From positions 1-57,738 of the IMG/VR virus record IMGVR_UViG_3300008116_008172: a stretch of 57,738 bases of DNA; one strand, written 5' to 3'. Below, piece by piece: positions 2,187 through 57,738 of this stretch; position 1 is the first letter of the stretch, and each line of letters starts with the position of its first letter. A program made the translations under genes and the position numbers. Origin of the DNA: a virus. The notes under the pieces were generated by a model. It did not search any database and was not told where the DNA came from. It saw only the letters and a list, made by a program, of their open reading frames with translations.

Positions 2187-3689
2187 TTATTTTCTCCAAA
2201 TCCATTTACTATGTCCACAGTCCCATATTCTGTCAAATCCATTATTTTTCATGTTTTCCCATTCAGACATTTCTGGGTCAAACTTCTCTAATCTTTCTGC
2301 CAACTTGTTTTTCTGAAACATTTGTCTGTTGAACAGTGCTTTATAGTCTGGCGAGATATAATAGTAACCTTGTGGAGTATAGCTTTCAAACTTCATTCCC
2401 AATTTACTGTATACATCACCTGAAAAATATCTTCTGTCAGAATAACTTACTATGTTATTTGGAGAATAGTCGTGTAGAAATACATTAAATAATTTGCTTG
2501 CACCACCATGTATCTTTGTATTTAGCGCGTTGCAAAATCTGGATATTTCCCATTCGCACTTTTTGTCAAATCTACTCTTGCAGAAAGTCATAATACTGAC
2601 AAGTGTGCCTTTGTAGAATAGTCCATATGCCACAGACGACTTGTCGTTGCCTTGAATGTGACAATTATTCAGAAAGTCTTTCTTGGTGTTAGAGTCTACT
2701 TTCTTGATATCACACTCTCTGCCATGAATCTTGGCAACAAATCCGCCAAGAGTTTGTCTAATAATGGATTTTACAATGTTTTGTTTTTGCAGCCATTCGT
2801 TTTCAAATATATGAATCAGTTTTATACCCTTCTCTTCACATGCTTGTGTTTTTTCCAAGTGATAATTTTTTGAAACTCGAACGCTTTCCTTGTGCCAATA
2901 CAGTCCATTATATTCAATAGCTATGTTCAGATCTGGAATATAGAAGTCTAATTCTTTTCCATTAAGAACTGTTCGGTTGTTTCTTGATATCAACTTGCCA
3001 TTAAGTTCACTGTTTAGAAAGTCTAGCAGCGATTTTTCTCCTGTGTTCTTTTTGTCTGGATAACACAGTTCACAGAATACATTGTTAGGAACATATACTG
3101 TAGAGTCGAATGTGTTGCTGCACTTATTGCACCTAAACTTGTATGATTTGGAAAAATGATATCCTTCATACTCATCTGGTTGTATTAGCCATGTAAGATT
3201 GTTAGCGGCAAACAATGCAGATAGATCGGTGTAATGATTTTCTTGTTTGCGCTTGCTTCTGCGAGATATAACTTCGTCGGCTTTGCCGGGATTGTCTACA
3301 CCATATTTGTCAATCCATGTTTGTTTTATCTGTTCTCTTAATGGACTGTTTGCAGATAATACATTTTCTACCCCATAGTTCTGTACAGTTGTTCTCTTAG
3401 CTTTGTCTTGTATAGACTTTACTTGCATGGCATATTCTTTGCCATACTTTTCAGACATAGAAGTCTTGTATCGTTCTTGTGTCTCTTTCGTCTTCATGGC
3501 GTGACCGCCATATTTTTCATTGAATGTATTTTCTACACCTTGTCTGTTTTTTTCCTTGACATCTGGTGAATTGGCAGAGCAAGACTTGCTACAATACTTC
3601 TTGGGCTTGTATTTCTTATATTCGAATACAATTTCACATGTTGGGCATGTAGATTTAATAATGGTGTCTGCGCTTCTAGGTCTGGCCAT
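2187..3689 (-). CDS. Vsr-like (EDxHD-type) homing endonuclease
   Basis: A 500-aa modular protein. Residues 14-36 form a CPTC...CSKSC zinc ribbon. Residues about 50-145 hold three or four repeats built on xKYGxxN/xNYGVEN, a DNA-binding repeat seen in phage homing enzymes. A second CNKC...CELC finger lies near residues 190-210. The nuclease core follows, ELDFYIPDLNIAIEYNGLYWH, matching the Vsr-type fold of the I-Bth0305I group, and the C-terminus ends FDRIWDCGHSKWIW. It sits on the opposite strand just upstream of the tail tube gene and interrupts no reading frame, so it is a free-standing mobile gene. The family assignment is from motif memory. Confidence 0.75.
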   Translation of the reverse strand: MARPRSADTIIKSTCPTCEIVFEYKKYKPKKYCSKSCSANSPDVKEKNRQGVENTFNEKYGGHAMKTKETQERYKTSMSEKYGKEYAMQVKSIQDKAKRTTVQNYGVENVLSANSPLREQIKQTWIDKYGVDNPGKADEVISRRSKRKQENHYTDLSALFAANNLTWLIQPDEYEGYHFSKSYKFRCNKCSNTFDSTVYVPNNVFCELCYPDKKNTGEKSLLDFLNSELNGKLISRNNRTVLNGKELDFYIPDLNIAIEYNGLYWHKESVRVSKNYHLEKTQACEEKGIKLIHIFENEWLQKQNIVKSIIRQTLGGFVAKIHGRECDIKKVDSNTKKDFLNNCHIQGNDKSSVAYGLFYKGTLVSIMTFCKSRFDKKCEWEISRFCNALNTKIHGGASKLFNVFLHDYSPNNIVSYSDRRYFSGDVYSKLGMKFESYTPQGYYYISPDYKALFNRQMFQKNKLAERLEKFDPEMSEWENMKNNGFDRIWDCGHSKWIWRK

Positions 3690-50851: not shown

Positions 50852-51556
50852 TCAACCACGTTTTCTTTTACCAAGAACAAAAGAAATACCAGATTCAGTG
50901 GGATAGAGCGACCACTCTATATTGTTCTTGTATAAACTTGCCAATCGTTTGTTTATATTTAATGTTCTTCTTTGGTCTTCCGTATATCTCAATTCTTTGA
51001 ATGTATTATCCAATACAGTCTTCGCTTCAATTAGTTTTTTATTATTTTTTTCTACGGAAGAAACATTGGTTTTAAAATACTCACTGTATTCAAATCCAAT
51101 ATGATTAGCCACAAATTCTATCCAATTATTACAATCTGTATTTACTACTAATAACTTTTCTGTTTTATCTTGGAAATGATTCAATACATTGTTATGATGA
51201 TATATTCTTTTGGATATCCATGATTTATATTCTTGATTGGTGGGTGGCCATTCAAATATACTGTTTTTTCTCATCACCCACATCCCATGTTTAGCTCTGC
51301 TCAATAACCAAGATTCTAATTCTCTGGTGTTTAGTATGAACAAGGATTTTGGATATTGCTTTTCAAGATTTTTAAAACTTATTGGATGGTTTTCTTTTAT
51401 GTGATTATCCCCATCACTTAGACATTGAACGGTTTCTATTTTGTTTTCCCAATCTGTAGAGTGGTATGAACTCAATCCCACTTTCATAAAGAGATGGTGA
51501 AAAGTGGTTGTGGCAGTCTTGTTGAATCCTATAACAAAAATTTTGCTGTACTTCAT
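50852..51556 (-). CDS. Sulfotransferase-like protein
   Basis: 234 aa from the start at 51556 (MKYSKIF); the longer frame to 51589 adds an unlikely hydrophobic piece. The PAPS 5'-phosphate loop is FVIGFNKTATTTFHHLF (about 6-22), matching the GxPKTGTT pattern, and FILNTRELESWLLSR fits the 3'-phosphate site (Arg and Ser). It probably transfers sulfate to a carbohydrate. It is on the opposite strand from its neighbours, as an isolated accessory gene, with TATAAATA (minus strand, 51597-51604) about 40 nt upstream. Confidence 0.7.
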   Translation of the reverse strand: MKYSKIFVIGFNKTATTTFHHLFMKVGLSSYHSTDWENKIETVQCLSDGDNHIKENHPISFKNLEKQYPKSLFILNTRELESWLLSRAKHGMWVMRKNSIFEWPPTNQEYKSWISKRIYHHNNVLNHFQDKTEKLLVVNTDCNNWIEFVANHIGFEYSEYFKTNVSSVEKNNKKLIEAKTVLDNTFKELRYTEDQRRTLNINKRLASLYKNNIEWSLYPTESGISFVLGKRKRG

Positions 51557-51596
51557 ATAACCATGTATACATAGTATCAAATACAACAAGTACAGT

Positions 51597-53627: not shown

Positions 53628-54323
53628 ATGCCCATCATTATTTTCAAGTTTGATGACTTTACGCAACCAAATGAATATTGGGAATGTCTAATGGAATATG
53701 GTATAAAAAACAACATAAAATTTAGTATAGGAATAATTGGAAAATATCTAGAAAAAGAAAACCAAAAAACATTTGATTGGGTAAAACGATTTCATAATAC
53801 TGGTAATGTTGAATTCTGGAATCATGGGTATAATCACGAAAAAAATAATAAAGGACTTGAATTTTTTGGTACATCTGTTGATGAACAATATTCGAGCTTA
53901 GAAAAAACACAAAGATTGGGAAAAGAAAAACTTGGAATAACATTTTCAACCTTTGGTGCGCCTTGGAATACAACCGATGAAAATACAATTTTAGCATTGG
54001 AAAAAATACCCGACATAAAAGTTTGGCTGCACGGCGACGAGAGATGCAAAAGTAAAATATGCCTACAACCGTCCAGAATAGCGTGTGAATCTTTCAAAGA
54101 GGGAAATAAATTTTTTGTTGACTTTGAAACTTTCAAAATAAAATACAACACAGTTAAATCCAGAGAGTATTTGATACTTCAATTCCACCCAGCAACTTGG
54201 AAGAAAATGAAGGCGGTCAGAGAATTTTACAATATCGCTGATTACTTGAGTAGCAATACAGATATTAAATTTATGCTTCCTAGTCAATTTGCTGAGTTTA
54301 AATACAAGCCCAACATAGCATAG
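53628..54323 (+). CDS. Polysaccharide deacetylase-like (NodB-type) protein
   Basis: 231 aa, cytoplasmic (no signal). The NodB plan is kept: FKFDDF (Asp9, Asp10: base and metal ligand), FWNHGYNH (His66 and His70: metal ligands), TFGAPWNTTDE, and LILQFHPATW with the late catalytic His. It would remove N- or O-acetyl groups from a sugar. It follows the RNA ligase by six bases but fits the glycan functions of the 40-45 kb block. Some family members act on other substrates. Confidence 0.78.
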   Translation: MPIIIFKFDDFTQPNEYWECLMEYGIKNNIKFSIGIIGKYLEKENQKTFDWVKRFHNTGNVEFWNHGYNHEKNNKGLEFFGTSVDEQYSSLEKTQRLGKEKLGITFSTFGAPWNTTDENTILALEKIPDIKVWLHGDERCKSKICLQPSRIACESFKEGNKFFVDFETFKIKYNTVKSREYLILQFHPATWKKMKAVREFYNIADYLSSNTDIKFMLPSQFAEFKYKPNIA

Positions 54324-54449: not shown

Positions 54450-54923
54450 ATGAAAAGTCATATAATATATAATGTAATGCTGATAATGATACTGAGTATC
54501 ACTGGGCTTAAAGCAAGTGATATGGTATTTGGATTTAAGTCTGCAACATTTAGTGGCGCAGGATTTTCTGCCACGGCAATGACGATTGAAAATTTGGCAA
54601 GAACGCGCAAGCAATCCATAAAAGATACTGCTAAAAATGAAGCACAACAACAATTACTGATGGCACAAAATACGCCGTTAAACACGTTTATAAACAATTT
54701 ACAGGCCAGAATATATTCTCAACTAGCATCACAAGTCACAGATCAAATATTCAATTCTTCTGGTCAATCTTTTGGCGTAATTAATCTACAGGGCGGCGCA
54801 ACAGTAACTTGGCAACGCAATGGTGACTTTGCCACCCTTTACATAGTCGATCCAGTAAGTGGAAATACAACTCAAATAACCGTACCAGTCGGTTCGCTAA
54901 CACCACCACCACCAAACGGATGA
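54450..54923 (+). CDS. csgF: Curli assembly factor CsgF-like
   Basis: 157 aa (E. coli CsgF 138). A signal peptide (MKSHIIYNVMLIMILSITGLKA) is followed by SDMVFGFKSATFSGAGF, matching the mature CsgF start that plugs into the CsgG pore, then LNTFINNLQARIYSQLASQV and the C-terminal strands VTWQRNGDFATLYIVDPVSG with TTQITVPVG. In E. coli it couples the CsgG channel to surface nucleation of curli. The end is Pro-rich. It overlaps csgG by four bases. Confidence 0.88.
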   Translation: MKSHIIYNVMLIMILSITGLKASDMVFGFKSATFSGAGFSATAMTIENLARTRKQSIKDTAKNEAQQQLLMAQNTPLNTFINNLQARIYSQLASQVTDQIFNSSGQSFGVINLQGGATVTWQRNGDFATLYIVDPVSGNTTQITVPVGSLTPPPPNG

Positions 54924-55723
54924 AGAATTATGCAATTATCACCCTATCAATGTTACTTCTTTCAGGGTGTGCATCAATCAAGAGCAAACCTGATATACTA
55001 GAAGTACCAAAATCCCAAACATCTCCGATGGAGAAAGAGTTGGTTGGTATTCCACCAATTGATGGTCCAAGAATAACCATAGGAATTTATGCATTTGCTG
55101 ACAAGACTGGGGCAAGAAAAACCACAGACAATTATGCATCATTTAGTTCAGCGGTGACACAGGGAGCAGAAAGTTGGCTAATCGATGCATTTAGAATGGC
55201 GGGTAGTGGAAAATGGTTTCAAGTTCTTGAAAGAGTTGGTTTGGATAATGTAATCAAGGAACGACAACTCATAGCACAGACCAGAGAAAGTTTCCAAGGA
55301 AGAAATTCTGAAAAATTAGCTCCTATGATTTTTGCTGGAATAATAGCAGAAGGTGGTATCATAGGATATGATTCAAATATTTTGACAGGTGGCGCAGGAG
55401 CAAGTGTTCTTGGCATATCAGGAAACACACAATATCGTAAAGATGTTGTTACTGTATCACTTCGTCTCGTCAGTGTACAAACAGGAGAAATACTTGTAAG
55501 CACCGCAGTAACAAAAACAATTTCCAGTGTTGCCCTATCGGGCAATTTATTCAAGTTCTATGAACACGGCGTATTGCCCATAGAATCTGAGTTGGGTTTA
55601 ACCGCCAACGAACCAAACACAATTGCGGTTCGCAGTGCGATAGAAAAAGCCGTGATAGACATTGTTTATCAGGGCGAAAAACTAAATCTCTGGAAATTCA
55701 AAAAGGAAAGTACAACACCATGA
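54920..55723 (+). CDS. csgG: Curli secretion channel CsgG-like lipoprotein
   Basis: 267 aa (E. coli CsgG 277). Lipobox LLLSG-Cys17 with Ala at +2 fits the outer membrane. Hallmarks follow: IYAFADKTGARK, YASFSSAVTQGAESWL, FQVLERVGLDNVIKERQLI, AGIIAEGGIIGYDSN, the transmembrane hairpin segments around NILTGGAGASVLGISGN and TVSLRLVSVQTGEILVST, and ELGLTANEP. CsgG forms a nine-subunit outer-membrane pore that exports curlins. Overlaps at both ends show translational coupling with csgF and the curlin-like gene. Confidence 0.93.
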   Translation: MKNYAIITLSMLLLSGCASIKSKPDILEVPKSQTSPMEKELVGIPPIDGPRITIGIYAFADKTGARKTTDNYASFSSAVTQGAESWLIDAFRMAGSGKWFQVLERVGLDNVIKERQLIAQTRESFQGRNSEKLAPMIFAGIIAEGGIIGYDSNILTGGAGASVLGISGNTQYRKDVVTVSLRLVSVQTGEILVSTAVTKTISSVALSGNLFKFYEHGVLPIESELGLTANEPNTIAVRSAIEKAVIDIVYQGEKLNLWKFKKESTTP

Positions 55724-56580
55724 AAACCATAAACATAGTAAAGTTTATATTCTTTACGGCAGTTCTAGGACTGCTTTCAAATACATTGGCTCAAACACCG
55801 GGAGCCTTGGGTGCCATCGCAGGAAACTCGTCTGGAAACCAAATATATGTAAATCAAATAACAACGGGTGGTGATACCACGTTCATTCAAAATGGCGCAT
55901 CAAACAGAATTGGATCTTTTGCTCTTCCAAGTAACATAACTGGAGACAATATCTTTTTCGAAATGCGCCAAATTGGAGATGGAAATAGCACAGACTTTTC
56001 CATCATTGGAGCAAACAACCTAAAGCTATTGTCTGCGTTCGCTGGTGATAACAACGAACAAAGAATATACTTCAACGGTGCTAATAACAATATGAATTTT
56101 CGTTTCGATGGAAACGGGAATAAATTGTGGATAAGCAACGATGTAACAGTATATCGCGATGGTGGTGAAAATACCGCAGCAGACAAAGCCACATTGGCAT
56201 CATCGGATATGCAGATCAAATTTGCTGGAAATAGCAACACTTTTGCTTACGCCACCACAAATGGTCTGAACAATTATCTGAAATATGATGTCACTGGAAA
56301 TACCAATGTCATCAAAACCACTCAAATTGGAAGTGCTGGTACAGGCACACGCCAATCAGGTCATTATCAAGATTTGACTATTCTTGGTGGAGGCAATGAT
56401 GTTATGATATACCAACAAGGCACTGTTCAACAATATTTTCAATATAGTTTGACGGGTAGCAATAACATTGTTCGTGTATCACAAACTGCAACTGCCGCTC
56501 CTACATTCACAATTAACAATAATAATCAACTGGCTCCACAAGGACCAGCGAGTGGTACAACTACCATAAGCAATCCATAA
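55720..56580 (+). CDS. Curlin-like secreted beta-repeat protein
   Basis: 286 aa, with a signal peptide ending SNTLA before QTPG. The mature part is Asn/Gly/Gln-rich with about eleven turns of the NGASN, GDGNS, AGDNN, TGNTN type spaced roughly 20-25 residues, each flanked by short beta strands containing Gln (NQIYVNQIT, IFFEMRQIG, VMIYQQG). This is the pattern of curlin (CsgA/CsgB) or a related beta-solenoid, more diverged than E. coli CsgA. Only one Met-rich or Cys feature is absent: there is no Cys. Predicted substrate of the adjacent CsgG/F. It overlaps csgG by four bases. Confidence 0.75.
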   Translation: MKTINIVKFIFFTAVLGLLSNTLAQTPGALGAIAGNSSGNQIYVNQITTGGDTTFIQNGASNRIGSFALPSNITGDNIFFEMRQIGDGNSTDFSIIGANNLKLLSAFAGDNNEQRIYFNGANNNMNFRFDGNGNKLWISNDVTVYRDGGENTAADKATLASSDMQIKFAGNSNTFAYATTNGLNNYLKYDVTGNTNVIKTTQIGSAGTGTRQSGHYQDLTILGGGNDVMIYQQGTVQQYFQYSLTGSNNIVRVSQTATAAPTFTINNNNQLAPQGPASGTTTISNP

Positions 56581-56583
56581 AGA

Positions 56584-57738
56584 ATGAACAAAATTGTTAC
56601 AGTCGCATTGATGTTCTTTTTATGGCATGATGTTTATGGTATTGCGGGTAAATTGACCGAGGTGACTGGCCCTACGCAGGTGAGTAGGGCCAGCACTAAA
56701 ATAGAAGGCAAGGTCAATGTTCCGATAGAAATGGATGATACCATTGAAACATTAAAAGCACGAGCGGGTATAACATTTGAAGATGGAACCCGAGTCCAGT
56801 GCACCGAATTTAGCAAATTGGTTATTGATACATTTGTATATGATCCAAGTACGGGAAAAGGAAAACTTGGAATGAAGGCAACAATGGGAACGGTGAGATA
56901 TGCATCTGGTCTTATTGCAAAAAATAACAAAGAAGAAGTCAGAGTTAAAACTCCTACTGCATCCATATCAGTTCGCGGTACAGACTTTTCAATGACAGTG
57001 GATGAGCTTGGAAGAAGCTTGGTAATTCTGTTACCATCCCAACCTCAATTTGGTCCACCTGTTGTTGGATCGATTGTGGTTGATAACGGAATGGGTACAG
57101 TTGTATTGACAAAACCATTTCAAGCAACATTTGTTGCATCAACATCGGTGGTACCATCATCGCCAGTATTATTGAATTTTGAAGATGAAACCAAAGTAAA
57201 TAACATGCTTATAATTGACACACCAAAGAATGTTACTCAAGCTGCCAAAGAAGCAAAGAAGGCATCTGTAACGGCGACTAAAGAAGATGATGGTAGCAAA
57301 GATAAGAAAGAAACAAAATCCGAAAGCAAATCAAGTAATACAACTATTGCACAGGCGGACAAACCAACCGAAGAAACTCAAGTGGCAACAAAAGAACCAG
57401 AACCAGTTCAAGCTGAAATTGTTACAAAACTTGACATAGAAAAAATTGATCCATCTGTTAATTCTTCTATTATGGATTCTATGTCCAAACAACCAAACGC
57501 CGCCAATACAAATTTATCAAACATACCTACTATATCCGTGCCATCTTCAACAGTAAATAATGGATTTACTACAAATGGAACACATGCCATTCTATATATA
57601 ACTAATAACAATAATGTAATATGGTATACTATGAAGTTTGACGCCAATGCAACTTTCAACATAACAACCAGAGATGGCAGTAAAGAATATCCGCTTAACT
57701 TTGGTTCAAAATTAAAAGTCAACATCACACAAAAATGA
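56584..57738 (+). CDS. Exported FecR-domain protein
   Basis: 384 aa, complete; the stop is the last codon of the window. A signal peptide (MNKIVTVALMFFLWHDVYG) precedes a FecR domain (about 20-150): GKLTEVTGPTQVSR, AGITFEDGTRVQCTEFSKLVID, KATMGTVRYASG and VRVKTPTASISVRGTDFSMTV. Residues about 205-290 are Lys/Glu/Thr-rich and probably disordered. The C-terminal 70 residues are beta-prone (AILYITNNNNVIWYTMKFD). It starts three bases after the curlin-like stop and is part of the operon. It may anchor or organise the fibre in the periplasm or at the wall. Confidence 0.82.
   Translation: MNKIVTVALMFFLWHDVYGIAGKLTEVTGPTQVSRASTKIEGKVNVPIEMDDTIETLKARAGITFEDGTRVQCTEFSKLVIDTFVYDPSTGKGKLGMKATMGTVRYASGLIAKNNKEEVRVKTPTASISVRGTDFSMTVDELGRSLVILLPSQPQFGPPVVGSIVVDNGMGTVVLTKPFQATFVASTSVVPSSPVLLNFEDETKVNNMLIIDTPKNVTQAAKEAKKASVTATKEDDGSKDKKETKSESKSSNTTIAQADKPTEETQVATKEPEPVQAEIVTKLDIEKIDPSVNSSIMDSMSKQPNAANTNLSNIPTISVPSSTVNNGFTTNGTHAILYITNNNNVIWYTMKFDANATFNITTRDGSKEYPLNFGSKLKVNITQK

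Follow-up and report, generated by a model that had tools for sequence, protein, structure and literature searches.

A diverged curlin-repeat protein in a phage curli-type secretion module

Described phage curli modules and the locus in the window

Phage csgF and csgG genes with unidentified neighbours have been described (PMC7029224), as have full modules with CsgA/B, FecR and a cyclase in podo- and myophages (PMC9599517), a module in an OM43 phage (PMC9004378) and curli genes in a T4-like virus of marine Bacteroidetes (PMC7198788); modules of the type described here were published in 2020 and 2022. As far as the accessible text of these four papers goes, the functions that they propose (sibling capture, superinfection exclusion, solute uptake and lysis control) are hypotheses. 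Such modules occur widely among phages (a CsgG query had at least 598 viral matches), and their function is still hypothetical in the literature searched. That search, with subscription papers and preprints outside its scope, found no description of a single-curlin clade in a ~300-kb phage. The module that we describe is of an already known kind; what is modestly new is a clade of curlins invisible to Pfam, one relative being a contig of 297 kb, together with evidence for a pairing of FecR and the cyclase.

We analysed a stretch of 57,738 nucleotides (the window). The contig is viral: its record is that of a virus, its DNA polymerase matches those of T4-like phages, and it encodes a UvsX-like recombinase (PHROGs). 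The nearest DNA polymerase of a named phage, Microcystis phage Mel-JY01, is at 41%, too distant for host assignment. A 297,258-base contig encodes a DNA polymerase 76% identical to that of the window; within the 80 kb compared, blastn matched 30,521 of the 57,738 window bases, with the order roughly kept and at least one piece moved. This relative also carries a tail-sheath gene. Together, the polymerase, the shared bases and the tail-sheath gene of the relative indicate that the window is probably part of the genome of a large phage with a contractile tail. Elsewhere in the window is a homing endonuclease gene (2187-3689, minus strand; PHROGs 3.8e-125).

The curlin gene is third in the row csgF-csgG-curlin-fecR (Table 1), with 4-base ATGA overlaps at the csgF/csgG and csgG/curlin junctions and a 3-base gap between curlin and fecR. 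The coordinates given for it in an earlier note on this DNA match an ATG-to-TAA open reading frame exactly. With CsgF, CsgG, a CsgA/B-like protein and FecR in one phage genome, the window carries the set by which PMC9599517 defines a phage type VIII secretion system (T8SS). The csgG product matched the profile of solved CsgG at E = 5e-61. The fecR stop codon is the final codon of the contig, and the cyclase gene of relatives would fall beyond its end. CsgE is absent, and a separate CsgB-like nucleator was not found in the window clade. No histidine kinase gene precedes the module, unlike in the podophage subtype of PMC9599517, which excludes that subtype only. Upstream of csgF lie genes for a DUF2334 protein and an RNA ligase; the DUF2334 gene (53628-54323, plus strand; Pfam 1e-9) is directly 5' of csgF, and phmmer found no relative of it in 76 other loci. 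A sulfotransferase-like gene (50852-51589; Pfam Sulfotransfer_4, 5.9e-7) lies near the module on the opposite, minus strand. There were no tail genes among the neighbours examined. T4-type late-promoter octamers occurred 8 times in the window compared with 3.6 expected, with none near csgF, and a promoter scan of the window gave chance-level results.

Table 1. Coordinates of the module's genes and of the curlin's parts in the window
Feature	Position	Strand	Basis
csgF, extracellular pore partner/chaperone	54450-54923	+	Pfam CsgF 2.7e-15
csgG, outer-membrane secretion channel lipoprotein	54920-55723	+	Pfam CsgG 1.3e-45; LSGC lipobox by eye
Curlin-repeat (CsgA/B-like) subunit	55720-56580	+	ATG-to-TAA ORF, 286 aa; repeat statistics, alignment, hhalign, AF2
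Putative Sec signal peptide, residues 1-24	55720-55791	+	Cleavage before Gln25 by eye
Predicted beta-solenoid region, residues 40-257, 17 half-repeats	55837-56490	+	AF2 strands ~11 residues apart; N/Q columns
Insertion loop, residues 142-153, with twelfth G-x-x-N	56143-56178	+	pLDDT <50; variable in alignment
fecR-domain protein, putatively exported	56584-57738	+	Pfam FecR 4.2e-9, residues 52-143; family alignment

Repeats, homology and predicted fold of the curlin

The curlin begins with signs of a signal peptide: a basic start, a hydrophobic stretch, the sequence TLA-Q and an AF2 helix at residues 3-18. Its mature part (residues 25-286) contains 12 G-x-x-N motifs, compared with a mean of 4.3 (sd 1.8) in 5000 composition-preserving shuffles (p = 0.0004). 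The autocorrelation of G and N had maxima at 11 and 22-23 residues, and six pairs of motifs were spaced 11 or 12 residues apart, compared with 0.14 expected. We aligned the window curlin with 27 of the 29 non-redundant curlins of its clade, omitting L048 (truncated start) and L060. Among these 28 relatives, both G and N are invariant in nine of the 12 motifs; the motif at residues 148-151 lies in a variable loop with low model confidence. With a register that we placed manually, guided by model and motif, we counted 17 half-repeats, i.e. ~8.5 curlin repeats, compared with five in E. coli CsgA, and each G-x-x-N turn closes one half-repeat (one strand). Repeat detection, which the earlier note had named as a check, thus supported its claim of G-x-x-N turns. 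Its count of about eleven turns stands, since one of the 12 motifs is in the loop and about eleven remain on the scaffold, but the turns mark half-repeats of ~8.5 repeats, and we rejected an array of eleven repeats on that ground.

The published curlin kernel is N-$-psi-$-psi-$-Q-X-G-X-X (PMC10192328). Counted from the N of the G-x-x-N motifs, with the loop motif excluded, mean hydropathy in our curlin was +1.96 at N+2 and +2.09 at N+4, and between -0.8 and -1.6 at N+1, N+3 and N+5; N-x-psi-x-psi-x3-G occurred 7 times compared with 1.2 expected (p = 0.0002). Two of the published patterns were enriched (NX5QXG twice, p = 0.038; a longer pattern three times, p = 0.011). No excess over chance was found for QX10Q (once), for the classical Q-x4-N spacing alone (3 compared with 2.4 expected, p = 0.45) or for N-x5-Q (5 compared with 2.4, p = 0.08). 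The N is invariant at 12 of the 17 half-repeats among the 28 relatives. By contrast with a regular E. coli-type CsgA, which has a Q in each strand, the Q is invariant at only five of 17 (half-repeats 1, 2, 13, 15 and 17); in half-repeat 4, Q84 is shifted by one residue. At the remaining half-repeats other residues take the place of Q, chiefly I, V, F, L or A in the middle, where K, N and R occur as well, among others. The strand positions follow the published kernel and the Q column is partly kept, which places the protein in the degenerate class of curlins. According to the accessible part of PMC11414021, contacts between subunits in E. coli are made by R1 and R5, the repeats at the two ends. 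Retention of the kernel near the ends of our curlin, as at these contacts, is the pattern that would be expected of a fibre subunit.

Family membership was assessed by profile comparison. With hhalign, the 28 clade curlins matched 27 curlins of other phages with a score of 130 (probability 99.2, 198 columns); controls scored at most 24.3 over 60 column shuffles, 14.4 for the reversed profile and 18.2 for the FecR family. The other-phage alignment included 27 of 30 first curlins, and an alignment of second curlins included 10 of 15. Pfam Curlin_rpt recognised 26 of the 27 other-phage curlins at E≤0.1, with a best value of 9e-10. Among solved structures, the profile of the 27 found curlin 8c50 (5.4e-6) and 8enq, the major curlin subunit (0.047). 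The window protein itself does not match Pfam Curlin_rpt (PF07012; cut-off 20.7 bits), and two of the 28 clade members do so at E≤1 (best 0.18); given the homology to phage curlins that Pfam recognises, we attribute this miss to the limit of the model's reach. Searches of the curlin against NCBIfam (CsgA, E = 0.93) and PHROGs (PHROG_23620, function not annotated, E = 0.0013) were not useful, and a PDB sequence search with the clade profile returned no matches. Characters of the curlin superfamily found here are the repeats and kernel, homology, csgG and csgF as neighbours and, in AF2 models only, a beta-solenoid. The hhalign comparison and the half-repeat table together uphold the description of this protein as a diverged curlin, longer and less regular than E. 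coli CsgA.

AF2 gave a pLDDT of 72.3 and a pTM of 0.71 with 28 sequences, and 86.6 and 0.85 for residues 38-260 with 50 sequences. The models predict a beta-solenoid with strands recurring about every 11 residues; the non-repetitive globular fold that would have spoken against the earlier proposal did not appear. On shallow alignments, AF2 can give the wrong handedness (PMC10192328). Among viral predicted structures, there were only three matches at E≤0.001, all to phage proteins annotated 'Curlin associated', one with a TM score of 0.75 and an rmsd of 2.9 Å. Foldseek against the PDB found nothing at E≤0.001 with either model, and curli entries were absent among the matches listed. VIA-align superposed SufB/SufD-type beta-helices with Z scores of 16.4 (rmsd 3.1-3.3 Å, 189-192 residues) and of 18.0-18.4 (rmsd 2.3-2.5 Å, 190-193 residues); as far as the models go, these matches reflect a solenoid, not kinship. 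The earlier note had set a beta-solenoid against a classic amyloid. This is a false choice, the curli amyloid being itself a beta-solenoid and long and degenerate curlins having been described (PMC10192328), and we discarded the argument 'not amyloid because solenoid' accordingly.

The module in relatives, selection and the FecR gene

We collected viral relatives in three scans (15 loci, 62 loci, and 80 kept of the at least 598 matches) and counted gene order on 137 distinct contigs, setting aside L016, which lacks csgG, and L072, L083, L106, L107 and L134, in which csgG is cut off. A fecR gene was present in 113 of 113 testable loci, csgF in 125 of 127 (missing in L137 and L150) and the cyclase in 75 of 84 (missing despite room in L114, L119, L121, L126, L127, L128, L129, L130 and L132). 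By an automatic rule, 105 of 116 loci have a curlin ORF following csgG, and all 11 misses show a curlin-like or repeat-rich ORF. Within the window clade (L004-L077), the module was complete wherever it could be scored (csgF 59/59, curlin 55/55, fecR 55/55, cyclase 46/46). In 53 of 53 loci of this clade, no gene separates fecR from the cyclase, which combines CHASE2 with a class III cyclase; this indicates that window-clade phages have one curlin.

The slot between fecR and the cyclase varies among phage clades, and some slots hold large exported-looking proteins (L142:9128-11173, L131:8782-11142 and L002:3311-4633; also L114, L120, L127, L133, L135, L140 and L132), one with an autotransporter beta-domain (Pfam 9.8e-12) and one with an F5/8 type C domain (2.4e-8). 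In HTVC008M, the slot protein fuses a PA14 domain to curlin repeats. The cyclase frame of the 297-kb relative (L018:8009-10584) is cut short to 591 aa; the next ORF matches DUF723 and T5orf172, and a homing endonuclease has possibly inserted into the cyclase gene. Scanning bacterial and archaeal genomes with CsgG gave five loci (L155-L159) with 43-46% identity. All five come from draft bins or MAGs labelled Pelagibacter, Rhodobacteraceae and Flavobacteriaceae, and these may be phage contigs binned with their hosts. CHASE2 genes were present in three of the three draft-bin genomes searched.

Curlin dN/dS (NG86) against three relatives was 0.042, 0.053 and 0.061, compared with 0.067-0.101 for csgG, 0.079-0.146 for fecR, and 0.094 and 0.153 for csgF (infinite dS against L012). 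Only three pairs were compared, and their synonymous sites are close to saturation; in every comparison that yielded a ratio, that of the curlin was the lowest of the four genes. Such strong purifying selection suggests that the curlin is very probably functional. To judge from these substitution rates, there is no sign of an arms race; an arms race at the surface usually leaves a different mark.

FecR in phage modules has been read as an iron-related regulator (PMC9599517). In the window protein, a signal-like N-terminus precedes the FecR domain, which begins at residue 52 and so leaves little space for an anti-sigma domain. Classical FecR has an N-terminal cytoplasmic anti-sigma domain before its membrane span. 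A FecR domain just behind an export signal points to an exported partner of the cyclase rather than an iron regulator. We examined three alphaproteobacterial plasmid loci, from Ensifer, Paracoccus and Shinella, and in each a CHASE2 cyclase gene has a FecR-domain gene beside it or close by (in Ensifer on the other strand, with one gene in between). As in the phages, the FecR domain of these bacterial proteins lies within residues 52-156. Unlike in the phages, where the pair is joined to curli genes, no curli genes are listed at these cyclase loci; conversely, no FecR or cyclase gene is listed at the four annotated bacterial curli loci examined (Azospirillum, Limimaricola, Sphingomonas and Bosea), the PLSDB gene tables being incomplete in both cases. 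A fifth bacterial curli locus, from Sphingobium, has mostly hypothetical proteins. This mutual absence suggests, in a small sample, that phages brought together a curli cassette and a FecR-CHASE2-cyclase cassette, both of bacterial origin. Taken together, these data suggest that FecR belongs to a cyclase sensor, not to iron regulation of curli. The earlier note had also raised a phage-specific function for the curlin, and this is possible, since phage modules carry fecR and cyclase genes and the annotated bacterial curli loci examined do not.

Proposed function and comparison with known systems

We favour, as probable with considerable room for doubt, the reading that the curlin is the fibre subunit of a phage type VIII (curli) secretion module that alters the surface of the infected cell. 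During infection, the signal peptide would send the curlin to the periplasm, where it would be kept unfolded; it would then leave the cell by way of the phage CsgG channel, on whose outer side CsgF sits, and adopt its beta-solenoid fold of 8.5 repeats once at the surface. End repeats with the full N/Q kernel would stack head to tail into curli-like fibres, and these would change the infected-cell surface, making the cell adhere to siblings or particles and/or impeding other phages. Exported FecR and the CHASE2 adenylate cyclase would probably act as a sensor pair that raises cAMP on an envelope signal. A fuller circuit is rather unlikely as a whole: curlin exported via CsgG would build a surface fibre, exported FecR would report the state of fibre or envelope to the cyclase, and cAMP would tune the infected cell, e.g. 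by delaying lysis once cells are clustered, the two bacterial cassettes having been joined as a five-gene unit.

Most of the middle of the protein lacks the Q ladder, and polymerisation could therefore be weak or lost; Melnitz-infected cells showed no clumping (PMC9004378). A secreted, non-polymerising beta-solenoid, acting as a monomeric surface adhesin or mask and close to the earlier note's idea of receptor masking, is a doubtful but credible alternative. The absence of Q from most middle half-repeats across the 28 aligned members fits it, as do the surface adhesins and antifreeze proteins among the solved beta-solenoids matched and the report that beta-solenoids outside curli did not polymerise (PMC10192328). 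However, the terminal half-repeats keep invariant N and Q at the stacking contacts, csgF, the fibre tether/nucleator, is retained in 59 of the 59 clade loci with room for it, and degenerate curlins are treated as curli subunits in the same paper. About equally tentative is superinfection exclusion, in which a fibre or solenoid covers receptors and blocks adsorption of competing phages. It has been proposed for pelagiphages (PMC9599517) and the gene set fits a product of the infected-cell surface, but the three pairs gave no sign of diversifying selection on the curlin (dN/dS 0.042-0.061).

It is less probable still that the CsgG/CsgF pore is the working part, in lysis timing or solute uptake, with the repeat protein as a plug or passenger. 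The CsgE gate is absent, and the authors of the Melnitz study propose a pinholin or secretin and modelled the pore as such (PMC9004378). The accessible text of that paper takes csgA/B as absent, yet the Melnitz GenBank record (MZ577097.1; L003) annotates two curlin-associated repeat proteins in the operon, and constraint is stronger on the curlin than on csgG. A virion protein, with the solenoid in a tail fibre or baseplate, is very improbable: tailspikes of phages, which are beta-solenoids, do occur among the structural matches, but the export signal, the translational overlap with csgG and the lack of a tail gene among the neighbours examined speak against it. With a single curlin and no second repeat gene, the window clade is the simplest form in which to ask whether phage curlins make fibres, and the FecR-CHASE2-cyclase link makes a cyclase-sensor role for FecR testable.

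The curlin resembles E. coli CsgA in its two-strand rungs of ~22-23 residues, its conserved end repeats and its proposed secretion by CsgG with CsgF. By contrast, E. coli CsgA has five repeats with Q at each strand of the classical motif, whereas the window protein has ~8.5 repeats with few Q, and neither CsgE nor a separate CsgB was seen. With the degenerate class of CsgA, as described in the accessible text of PMC10192328, it shares a kernel with missing N or Q, insertions in the arcs and an odd strand number ending in a half repeat; it differs in being phage-encoded and in that the loss of Q spans most middle half-repeats and spares the ends. The closest systems are the T8SS modules of the pelagiphage HTVC008M and the OM43 phage Melnitz (PMC7029224, PMC9599517, PMC9004378), which have the same csgF-csgG-curlin-fecR order with an adenylate cyclase last, shown in HTVC008M to carry CHASE2 as in the window clade, and whose CsgG proteins are 45-47% identical to that of the window. 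In both of these modules a second curlin lies downstream of fecR and ahead of the cyclase; window-clade phages encode only one, which is longer (238-286 aa) and misses the Pfam model. The closest long relative of the window is 297 kb, compared with 141-147 kb for HTVC008M and Melnitz.
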